Assembly (NCBI GenBank): GCA_903870275.1
Contig: CAIQCK010000119.1
Coordinates: 62,001-126,000 of the forward strand
DNA: 64,000 bases
Direction: 5' to 3'
Source: an uncultured bacterium
Lineage (GTDB): Bacteria; Verrucomicrobiota; Verrucomicrobiia; CAIQCK01
Shown here: positions 34,555 to 47,729 of the stretch, piece by piece
Position numbering within the stretch: the stretch's first letter is position 1
Layout of the letters: every line of letters starts with the position of its first letter
The notes under the pieces: model-generated
The model's input: only the letters and a program-made list of their open reading frames with translations
What the model was told of the DNA's origin: nothing
Database searches by the model: none
Made by a program: the position numbers and the translations under genes

Positions 34555-34924
34555 GTGTTTATGCCCTTTTGAGGTGCTCCATGGACAGGAAAGCAAATCA
34601 CGCACGCTTGAAGCCAAACAAGCTGAGAAACCCATTGAAGTTCCAAAAAGGAGTAATCCTTCCGCGTTGCATATCAGATACCGCGCCGGATCCTGCGACA
34701 TGGCACCTTGTCCCATGTCCTGCTCCAACCTCGCTGTCATGCTATCAACGTCGCGATACCGCGCAAGCACAAAAATCGCCCGCCAAAAAAACGGGGTGGT
34801 CGCGGCTTCGCAACGGCGAAAACACAGCCCGGCGTGGCTTCTAAGGCTTCGCCTGATGGCAAAATCAGGATTTCACCCATAGACATGACTCCGCGGACGC
34901 CCGCAAGATTCAGGGTGAAATTCA
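34555..34924. other. Divergent control region between envelope operon and kinase unit
   Basis: These 370 bases separate the DUF3300 start (minus) from the small membrane ORF (plus). They contain a TTCGC-AACG-GCGAA inverted repeat at 34807-34820 and the 43-nt element described separately. An AAGGA-GTAA-TCCTT palindromic stretch lies near 34650. ORFs drawn across the region are not convincing. I could not fix a sigma-70 promoter by eye. Confidence 0.5.
34840..34882 (+). promoter_or_regulatory. 43-nt operator-like element A
   Basis: The element begins TCTAAGG and has the core GGCAAAATCAGG. It aligns without gaps to a second element at 42326-42368 with 32 of 43 positions identical. Inside it, CCTGAT and ATCAGG form a 6-bp inverted repeat spaced by 6 nt. 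It stands 42 nt before the small ORF at 34925 and 285 nt from the DUF3300 start. A binding site for the linked NarL-type regulator is my inference. Confidence 0.5.
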
Positions 34925-41579: not shown

Positions 41580-42257
41580 ATGCCAAAAAAACAAAAGCCA
41601 TCGCCAAAAAGCAAAGCGCGCATCCTCATCGTGGACGACCATCCGATCGCGCGCCAGGGCTTGGCGCAACTCATCAACGAGGAACCGGATCTGGCCGTGT
41701 GCTGGCAGACCGACAGCGCGGGAGCGGCATTGGAACTGATCGGCATCGACAAACCCGATCTGGCCATCGTGGATGTCTCGTTGCGGGACTCCAGCGGCAT
41801 CGAACTGGTGAAAAACATCAAAGCGCAGTCGGCAGGCGTGCCGGTCCTGGTGTTCTCCATGCACGAGGAGTCGTTTTTCGCCGAACGGTCGTTGCAAGCC
41901 GGTGCGCTTGGCTACCTCACCAAACAGGAGCCGACCGAGTCCATCCTCGTCGCCATCCGCCGCATCCTGGGCGGCGACATCTATCTCAGCGAACAAATGA
42001 CCAACTGGCTGCTGAAGAAGGCCGGCGGAAACCGCACCGGGTTGTTACAGTCGCCAGTCCGCGTCCTGAGCGACCGCGAGCTTGAAATGTTTCAGCTTTT
42101 TGGCCAGGGCAAAAGCCCGCGCGAGATCGCCGCCGGCCTGCACCTCAGCCCCAAGACCGTCGAAACGCACCGCGCGAACATTCTCCGAAAGCTGAAGCTG
42201 AAAAACGCGGTGGAACTGGTGCGATACGCCTGTCAGTGGAACGCCAGCGGACACTGA
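41580..42257 (+). CDS. NarL/FixJ-type response regulator
   Basis: The track starts at 41535 inside the kinase gene; the ATG at 41580 with CGGAGGA upstream is the real start, giving 225 aa. The receiver domain has acidic residues 19-20 (ILIVDDHP), phospho-acceptor Asp65 (LAIVDVSLRD) and Lys115 (GYLTKQE). The C-terminal LuxR-type helix-turn-helix follows (LSDRELEMFQLFGQGKSPRE; LHLSPKTVETHRANILRKL). It is the partner of the upstream kinase and probably binds DNA as a dimer after phosphorylation. Likely targets are the divergent envelope operon and the leader-like unit just downstream. Confidence 0.93.
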   Translation: MPKKQKPSPKSKARILIVDDHPIARQGLAQLINEEPDLAVCWQTDSAGAALELIGIDKPDLAIVDVSLRDSSGIELVKNIKAQSAGVPVLVFSMHEESFFAERSLQAGALGYLTKQEPTESILVAIRRILGGDIYLSEQMTNWLLKKAGGNRTGLLQSPVRVLSDRELEMFQLFGQGKSPREIAAGLHLSPKTVETHRANILRKLKLKNAVELVRYACQWNASGH

Positions 42258-42325: not shown

Positions 42326-42368
42326 TCTAAGGGTTTTGCTTACGGCAAAATCAGGTTTTTCCTCATTG
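42326..42368 (+). promoter_or_regulatory. 43-nt operator-like element B
   Basis: This copy begins TCTAAGG, shares GGCAAAATCAGG with element A and matches it at 32 of 43 positions with no gap. It contains the inverted repeat TTTTGC-TTACG-GCAAAA (42334-42350). It lies 68 nt after the response-regulator stop and upstream of a structured leader, so it may direct regulated transcription of that unit. Confidence 0.5.
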
Positions 42369-42493
42369 CGCGCCGTCCACTTGTTGCCCAGTCTCAATCT
42401 TGAAAATCGAACGCGGACGGTTGATGGAAACGCGAGCGATGTTTCCGCGGTTTTGGTGTCTCGTCTGGCGGGCGGTGGCAGCGCCGTGCGGGG

Positions 42494-42582
42494 GGAGTCG
42501 CTGCCGCCAGGATGAGGCAGCTGTGTATCGCCTGAGGAGGCGGCAGGAAGCGAGCCAAGAGGGCGGAGTCGCTTCCTGCCGC
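42494..42582 (+). promoter_or_regulatory. Leader-like RNA segment with mutually exclusive stems
   Basis: GCGGCAGGAAGCGA (42540-42553) is perfectly complementary to 42569-42582, giving a 14-bp stem with a 15-nt loop. The 5' part of that strand, GGCGGCAG (42539-42546), is also complementary to CTGCCGCC at 42501-42508. The two pairings cannot coexist, because both 3' partners derive from a direct repeat (GGAGTCGCTGCCGC and GGAGTCGCTTCCTGCCGC). No U-tract follows; instead GGAGG and an ATG follow within 25 nt. An RNA switch is plausible but unproven. Confidence 0.45.
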
Positions 42583-42604
42583 AACACACGGGAGGAAACG
42601 ACGC

Positions 42605-42694
42605 ATGTTTTTGAGAAACGGCTTTCGCAAGAAAGCCAGGAGGAAACCCCGCAAGAGCCTAGCGTCCGCTCCAAGCGCGAACTGTCCGGGCTGA
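42605..42694 (+). CDS. Possible 29-aa highly basic peptide
   Basis: The ATG at 42605 is preceded at 9 nt by GGAGG. The peptide begins MFLRNGFRKKARRKPRKS and ends in a neutral tail, with ten Arg/Lys in 29 residues. It is too short for the track. It follows the leader-like segment directly, which is the main reason to list it. A competing frame (42400-42768) overlaps it. It could be a leader peptide, a nucleic-acid-binding peptide or chance. Confidence 0.3.
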   Translation: MFLRNGFRKKARRKPRKSLASAPSANCPG

Positions 42695-42731: not shown

Positions 42732-42980
42732 CTACGCACCACCGGCTGATTTGGTGGTGGATTCCTGACGCCACCGCCGCCAAGCCGTTCGATACTTGGC
42801 CACCCAGTCCACCAGCGCGCGCTCGAAACCGATATCGTGCCCCGCCTTTTCGCTTTCCAGCCACTTGTGCCGGAGGATCTCCTCGCGCTCGGCGATGAAT
42901 TCTTTATACAACGAAGTTTGTTTGACCCACTCGTCCGGCGTGGCTTGCATGCCTTTGTCTGATTTGTTGCCGTTGTCCAT
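42732..42980 (-). CDS. Conserved small hypothetical protein (82 aa)
   Basis: I choose the ATG at 42980 (MDNGNKSDKGMQATPDEW), preceded by GAGGTG, rather than the track start at 43007. The core EREEILRHKWLESEKAGHDI followed by GFERALVDWVAKYRTAWRRW is alpha-helical and Trp-rich, and looks like a small conserved protein I have seen in diverse bacteria without a known function. No signal peptide is present. It converges on the leader-like unit and lies 141 nt downstream of the SYLF gene on the same strand. Confidence 0.7.
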   Translation of the reverse strand: MDNGNKSDKGMQATPDEWVKQTSLYKEFIAEREEILRHKWLESEKAGHDIGFERALVDWVAKYRTAWRRWRQESTTKSAGGA

Positions 42981-44811: not shown

Positions 44812-45289
44812 GCGCGCATCCTAAAGACCGGCGCTCAAAGTTCAACCATGTTTTGCACGCTCCAAGATCAATGTGAAGGGACGGGGAAGCCGCGCGGCCT
44901 GCCGGCCGAGACGCTTCACGGCGCGGCCAGGTCGTAGTCCAATGGAAAAATGGGGAACGGGCAAAATCATGAATGGCAAAATCATGATTTTGCCATTCAT
45001 GATTTTGCCGAAAAACCGGCTCAATAGCGTACACACGCGTAGGCAGCGCCGACAAATTGTGGCCACGAACGCATGGAGGCGGAACGTTCTCCGATCACGG
45101 CCTTTTCGCCTCCACGCGGCTGCTGCGAGATATCCGGGACAACGCGCGCCGAAAACCGCCCGCCCGTCGCTTTGTTCTGGAAAAACTTTTTCCGGGTCCC
45201 CATGCTTGTAAAACGTTTGCTGAATAAAAACGGGTTGTGGTTTGTCTAAGGCCGCAACGCAGTCCGAACAACGAAAAGAAAATAAAACT
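44812..45289. other. Intergenic region between parA and the GW-rich exported protein
   Basis: The 478 bases contain the perfect 50-bp palindrome listed separately and no convincing gene. Track ORFs here read through the palindrome and lack start signals. Promoters for parA (minus) and the 45290 gene (plus) must lie within it. No parS-like TGTTTCACGTGAAACA site is visible. Confidence 0.5.
44960..45009. repeat. Perfect 50-bp palindrome
   Basis: The sequence is exactly self-complementary over 50 bases with no loop. Each half carries the unit GGCAAAATCATGA twice in tandem, separated by AT. It could extrude as a cruciform, form an RNA hairpin, or derive from a mobile-element end. The GGCAAAATCA core also occurs in the two 43-nt elements near the kinase, which may be coincidence. 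Confidence 0.8.
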
Positions 45290-47333: not shown

Positions 47334-47432
47334 ACGGGAAAGGCGGAACGCGAAACGCGAAGAGGGGAAGGCGGGAGCAGTGAGGGGGGCGTGATGCGCG
47401 TATCGTTTGAGCCGCGGAGCGGCGGCAGAAAA

Positions 47433-47586
47433 TAGCCCACGGCGCCAGCCGTGGGGACTCGTAACAAGAGACGCAAGCCCCGGCAGGGGCGGAAGAAATC
47501 ATTCATCGTTGGCGCGCGTTTTCTACCGCCCCTGACGGGGCTTTGGTCTTTCGACACGTTATTCCCACGGCTGGCGCCGTGGGCTA
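47433..47586. repeat. 154-bp nested inverted-repeat element (MITE/REP-like)
   Basis: The outer arms, 47433-47455 and 47564-47586, are perfect 23-bp inverted copies. The inner arms, 47475-47492 and 47526-47543, match in inverted orientation at 17 of 18 positions. Each outer arm is itself a hairpin (CCCACGG ... CCGTGGG), and each inner arm likewise (GCCCC ... GGGGC). No transposase is nearby, so a non-autonomous mobile or structured element is likely. Similar repeats are familiar from PVC-group genomes. Confidence 0.75.
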
Positions 47587-47729
47587 CGATCTGCCGCGCC
47601 TCCGGCGCTCCCCGCGGAACCGGAACCGCTCGCATTCCAAAGGCTGCGGCCCGCCGGGAACGGCCCGCCCTGCCCAACGGATGCGCGAGTGACCTCAACG
47701 TTCGGCAGCAAAAATTAAGCAAAAATATC

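Follow-up and report, generated by a model that had tools for sequence, protein, structure and literature searches.

Orphan cis-regulatory leader motifs, such as the former yjdF motif (PMC4793209), are conserved structured RNAs that lie directly before one gene of unassigned function and have no ligand assigned to them. The leader described here, from a 64-kb stretch of DNA of an uncultured verrucomicrobial bacterium (hereafter, the window), resembles them in both respects. It is unlike them in being known from four genomes of one genus and a half-match, which is too few to define a class, and in showing neither the sign of a ligand pocket nor an identified expression platform. Transcription attenuators and switching riboswitches also invite comparison: the sequence common to the leader's arms allows a rival pairing to be drawn, but this rival falls far short of the two hairpins in stability, neither hairpin coincides with a terminator-like site, and no leader peptide is conserved. 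With REP/BIME repeats it shares two adjacent GC-rich palindromes of similar sequence, yet it is single-copy, sits at an orthologous position and carries compensated stem changes. Finally, small RNAs of the GacA/RsmA type (RsmY, RsmZ, RsmW) combine hairpins bearing GGA in their loops with an adjoining LuxR-type response regulator and an upstream palindromic site, as does our locus; in contrast to these, three of the four genomes of the genus yielded no csrA, the leader stands at a fixed distance before an ORF, and it has no significant Rfam match.

What, then, is this element? It is an undescribed, genus-restricted and genuine leader RNA. With moderate confidence, we favor its being the structured 5′ UTR of a 189-aa orphan gene, transcribed from a regulator-driven promoter and acting in cis, with the copy in the window a probable relic. 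A sequence-only reading of the window had proposed a leader with mutually exclusive stems; the conserved structured leader ahead of a Shine-Dalgarno (SD) sequence and an ATG, belonging to no known RNA family, has stood up, the mutual exclusivity of its stems has not. What was a guess drawn from one genome is now a leader RNA that is defined, can be tested and has a partner gene, and the tiny ORF behind it is explained as a remnant. The features are collected in Table 1.

Table 1. Features of the leader locus (coordinates are positions in the window)
Feature	Position	Strand	Basis and remarks
Operator-like motif, second copy	34844..34869	+	Pattern match C119:96844-96869, before kinase operon; equivalently placed in G001 and G003
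Multi-PAS histidine kinase gene, 2078 aa	35329..41565	+	ORF; kinase reading from sequence and adjacent response regulator
LuxR/NarL-type response regulator gene	41580..42257	+	Pfam Response_reg 6e-25, GerE 3e-19
Operator-like motif AGGGTTTTGCTTACGGCAAAATCAGG	42330..42355	+	Alignment; conserved before leader
Promoter position of relatives	42366..42394	+	TTGCGC-17-CAGTCT in window, weak; alignment by eye
Hairpin H1	42464..42511	+	Conserved G-rich loop GCGGGGGG(A)AGT; register varies among genomes
Linker TCGCCTGAGGA	42528..42538	+	11 nt, identical in all four genus members
Hairpin H2	42540..42582	+	14-bp stem closing a variable 15-nt loop; five compensated pairs in a five-sequence comparison
SD-like GGAGG	42591..42595	+	Sequence; SD-like sequence at equivalent place in relatives
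29-codon ORF	42605..42694	+	By alignment, eroded 5′ end of relatives' 189-aa gene
DUF4032-like small gene, convergent	42732..42980	-	Homologue search; Pfam DUF4032 on G001 homologue; syntenic in four genomes

Hairpins, covariation and distribution

The element comprises two consecutive hairpins, the 5′ arm of H1 lying just upstream of the interval to which attention was originally drawn (42494-42604). The stem of H2 is perfect, pairing 42540-42553 with 42569-42582, while H1 can form in either of two registers: 42474-42483 with 42499-42508 (register a), or 42464-42479 with 42497-42511 (register b), the latter being the more stable in the window and in the congener G001. Both hairpins carry the same GCGGCAG/CTGCCGC core. 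When the H1 5′ arm is included in the fold, the mean pair probability of H2 is 0.998. The leader region is more stable than all of 200 shuffles (z = -4.4). Perfect 14-bp hairpins with loops of at most 20 nt occur twice in the 64-kb window, versus none in 20 dinucleotide shuffles. The individual sequence features noted earlier were all found again, namely the 14-bp H2 and an 8-bp pairing of 42501-42508 with 42539-42546, a diverged direct repeat (42483-42505 and 42554-42576, 78%), and the GGAGG and ATG downstream. As a side observation, H1 and H2, both GC-rich near-perfect palindromes, resemble diverged copies of each other; the window's other perfect palindrome of at least 14 bp, at 44961-45012, is accompanied by repeated ATGGCAAAATCAT units.

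Covariation, named in the sequence-only reading as the check on its stems, bears out H2, for which five compensated pairs over five sequences were matched by none of 500 shuffles. The comparison comprises four close sequences of one genus and one half-match from another genus (G005; locus L014, the same as L018); this distant sequence supplies four of the five compensated pairs. Before the G005 homologue of the 189-aa gene (34% identity) stands GGCGGCAGACGCCA...TGGCGCCTGCCGCC, which has the lower stem in common with H2 and an upper stem that has changed in step. The linker is not present on the G005 contig, which begins too close to the gene to show H1. Among the four sequences within the genus, covariation is slight and not above shuffles (122/500), and H1 taken alone has one compensated pair. 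H2 is a conserved secondary structure with compensated changes, mainly by virtue of one distant sequence.

Single-copy in the window's 7.1-Mb draft genome, the element recurs at the same locus in all three congeners examined (G001-G003) at ~74% identity. The respective loci (L003, L004 and L005; records JAPLTX010000014.1, JACRQF010000020.1 and JACRJX010000032.1) belong to Verrucomicrobia MAGs whose isolate names suggest Lac Pavin and groundwater as their origins. Identity along the alignment is highest in H1 (0.83–0.97), followed by the linker and H2, and low around them, being raised outside the hairpins and linker only at the upstream motif and the start-codon region. A covariance model of the leader recovers the four genus members and, across 380 further genomes of the class, nothing better than chance; further R1 matches in 384 class genomes at E <= 0.1 per genome were about the number expected by chance, in a search that scores few candidates per genome and that weak distant relatives could escape. 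The best of these further matches (L023, L024 and L025) were rejected, their stems being broken or only one hairpin being present. In the sister genus g2 (G004, G006), the DUF4032-like gene is present, but neither the leader model nor the 189-aa protein found a match. The absence of a known riboswitch consensus, remarked upon from the letters alone, agrees with Rfam, which returned no family for the leader at gathering or permissive thresholds, and our literature search found no paper on such a motif.

The probable control region upstream and the gene downstream

Some 120 nt ahead of H1, the window, G001 and G003 share a motif of the form TAAGGNTTTNCCCTATGGCAAAATCAGG, of which G002 has a diverged version. 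It has 21 matches in the four genomes as compared to 0 for a reversed control, precedes the kinase operon in three of them (the window, at 34844, G001 and G003), and is also found before other genes, among them a paralogous LuxR-type response regulator in the window's genome (L051, L076). Judged from this recurrence, it is probably the operator to which response regulators of this type would bind, and its occurrences outline an initial regulon for one two-component system in an uncultured lineage. At the promoter position, the relatives have -35/-10 pairs assigned by eye (TTGCCG/TAAAGT, TTGCGG/TAATGT and TTGCCG/TAGTAT), and a consensus promoter scan found no promoter at this position of the window, whose weak TTGCGC/CAGTCT is in keeping with decay. 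Concerning the neighborhood at large, the histidine kinase contains many PAS-like repeats, and in relatives an ORF for a small membrane protein of ~76 aa lies before the kinase gene. Beyond the leader, two Rfam matches to Acido-Lenti-1 RNA (47410-47455 on the reverse and 47564-47609 on the forward strand; 54–55 bits, cut-off 37) face each other at a distance of ~110 nt.

Downstream of the leader, G001–G003 encode a 189-aa ORF, 76–80% identical to that of G001, which begins 27–28 nt after the H2 core CGCTTCC. The ATG in the window keeps this spacing (28, 28, 28 and 27 nt in the four genomes), so that the leader's position is constant, by spacing in four genomes and by the presence of the 189-aa gene in three. 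In G002 the leader still accompanies the gene, even with something other than the response regulator encoded upstream, which argues that the two form a unit of their own. The 189-aa gene is absent elsewhere in the window's genome. When the 29-codon ORF was compared, ungapped, to the first 78 nt of the gene, we counted 41 (G002), 36 (G001) and 35 (G003) identities, against 36, 35 and 34, respectively, for the best among ~9,100 other offsets in the window. Since these values exceed those of all other offsets, the alignment identifies the tiny ORF as the eroded start (~26 codons) of the 189-aa gene, the rest of which is gone. Accordingly, the order of regulator gene and tiny ORF that had been pointed out is present, but as a decayed copy of regulator gene followed by 189-aa gene. 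The protein itself has no match in Pfam, NCBIfam or PADLOC and no convincing sequence relative in the PDB; a structural model of moderate confidence (pLDDT 75) shows a weak likeness to the thioredoxin fold (best E 0.08).

Proposed cis action and its alternatives

How might such a leader act? The neighboring LuxR-type response regulator would control the promoter, and in the transcript H1 and H2 would fold in succession. H2, kept at a constant spacing from the start codon and bordering the ribosome footprint, would most likely set translation or stability of the mRNA of the 189-aa gene in cis. That the same element occupies the same locus in three congeners, with conservation peaking in H1, linker and H2, argues for such a cis-acting leader, as does the H2-like hairpin before the start of the homologous gene in another genus. 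On the other side, SD and AUG are open in the predicted folds of some genomes and paired in those of others, leaving no translation-control state common to all. In the window's genome, where the gene is lost bar those ~26 eroded codons, the leader has presumably lost its function as well and is probably a recent relic, because its target gene is gone. Against this speaks its good state of preservation despite the gene loss, which a dead relic need not show. Should transcription of the leader persist in the window's species, the leader would represent a natural case of a 5′ UTR outliving its gene, possibly en route to becoming a free small RNA.

The preservation of the leader leaves room for an RNA that has already been freed. 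It could be a trans-acting small RNA expressed from the regulator-controlled promoter, with the 189-aa gene a mere neighbor or the RNA being bifunctional, in which case the window's species would have lost the gene and kept the RNA. We consider this unlikely, albeit worth entertaining: the window retains H1, linker and H2 undamaged, H2 as a perfect 14-bp stem; pairing could take place at the G-rich loop and the linker, both strongly conserved; and a response regulator adjoins. The constant distance from H2 to the ATG, the tie to the gene in three species and the H2-like hairpin before its homologue in a further genus, however, speak against it, no terminator-like site follows H2, and the window's -10 hexamer is weak. 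A bolder version, namely that the element constitutes a new, small class of regulatory RNA restricted to one uncultured verrucomicrobial genus, defined by two related hairpins, a G-rich loop that is conserved and a linker of 11 invariant nt, governed by a two-component system and, having outlived its gene in the window's species, now working there independently as a small RNA, strikes us as distinctly unlikely.

An on/off switch between rival stems is not supported. Positions 42501-42508, taken in the sequence-only reading for an alternative partner of H2, already form the 3′ arm of H1, in both of its registers. A fold of the originally noted interval that contains the alternative stem falls 6 kcal/mol short of the best one; when the H1 5′ arm is included, the alternative is 13–14 kcal/mol worse, with a probability of ~6e-11, and by these energies the leader does not possess two mutually exclusive structures of comparable stability. 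We therefore regard as improbable an attenuator or riboswitch in which a ligand, ribosome or protein would shift the H2 5′ arm onto 42501-42508. In its favor, the alternative can be drawn in each of the four genus genomes with 7–8 pairs, but this is the case because both hairpins share the same core; 73 of 500 shuffles are no worse, and G003 carries a G-C to A-U change that retains H2 while breaking one alternative pair. Likewise, the invariant linker could belong to a ligand site and, according to RNAalifold, can pair with the flank on the 5′ side of H1, yet this pairing has ~0 probability in single-sequence folds. A terminator scan found no terminator-like site at H1 or H2. Leader-peptide attenuation, wherein a short ORF running from an NTG before H1 into H1 would be translated and control folding, is scarcely credible: the frame from the aligned NTG through H1 is open in all four genomes, but G001 and G003 differ by six amino-acid-changing versus one silent codon, start codon apart, and both stop position and peptide vary among genomes.

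Could the hairpins instead function as DNA? Two near-perfect GC-rich palindromes that look like diverged copies would suit a dispersed REP- or MITE-like repeat or a protein-binding site devoid of RNA function, but the palindrome cores are no commoner than a control in seven genomes and the element has a single genomic copy, so a dispersed repeat, which should be present in many copies, was rejected. Compensated stem changes next to a variable loop, and the constant distance to the start codon, further render any purely DNA-level role quite improbable. Lastly, GGA occurs in the H1 loop, the linker, most H2 loops and the SD sequence, and together with the adjoining LuxR-type regulator this would fit an element serving the RNA-binding protein CsrA as target or decoy, as the GacA-controlled RsmY and RsmZ do. 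Such control is very improbable, because csrA (PF02599) was found in G003 and not in G001, G002 or the window's genome (drafts, 93–96% complete); the match to RsmW is at chance level. The G003 gene (L061; G003:C26:139505-139660) is the sole CsrA match among seven genomes of the family, and represents either an acquired gene or contamination.
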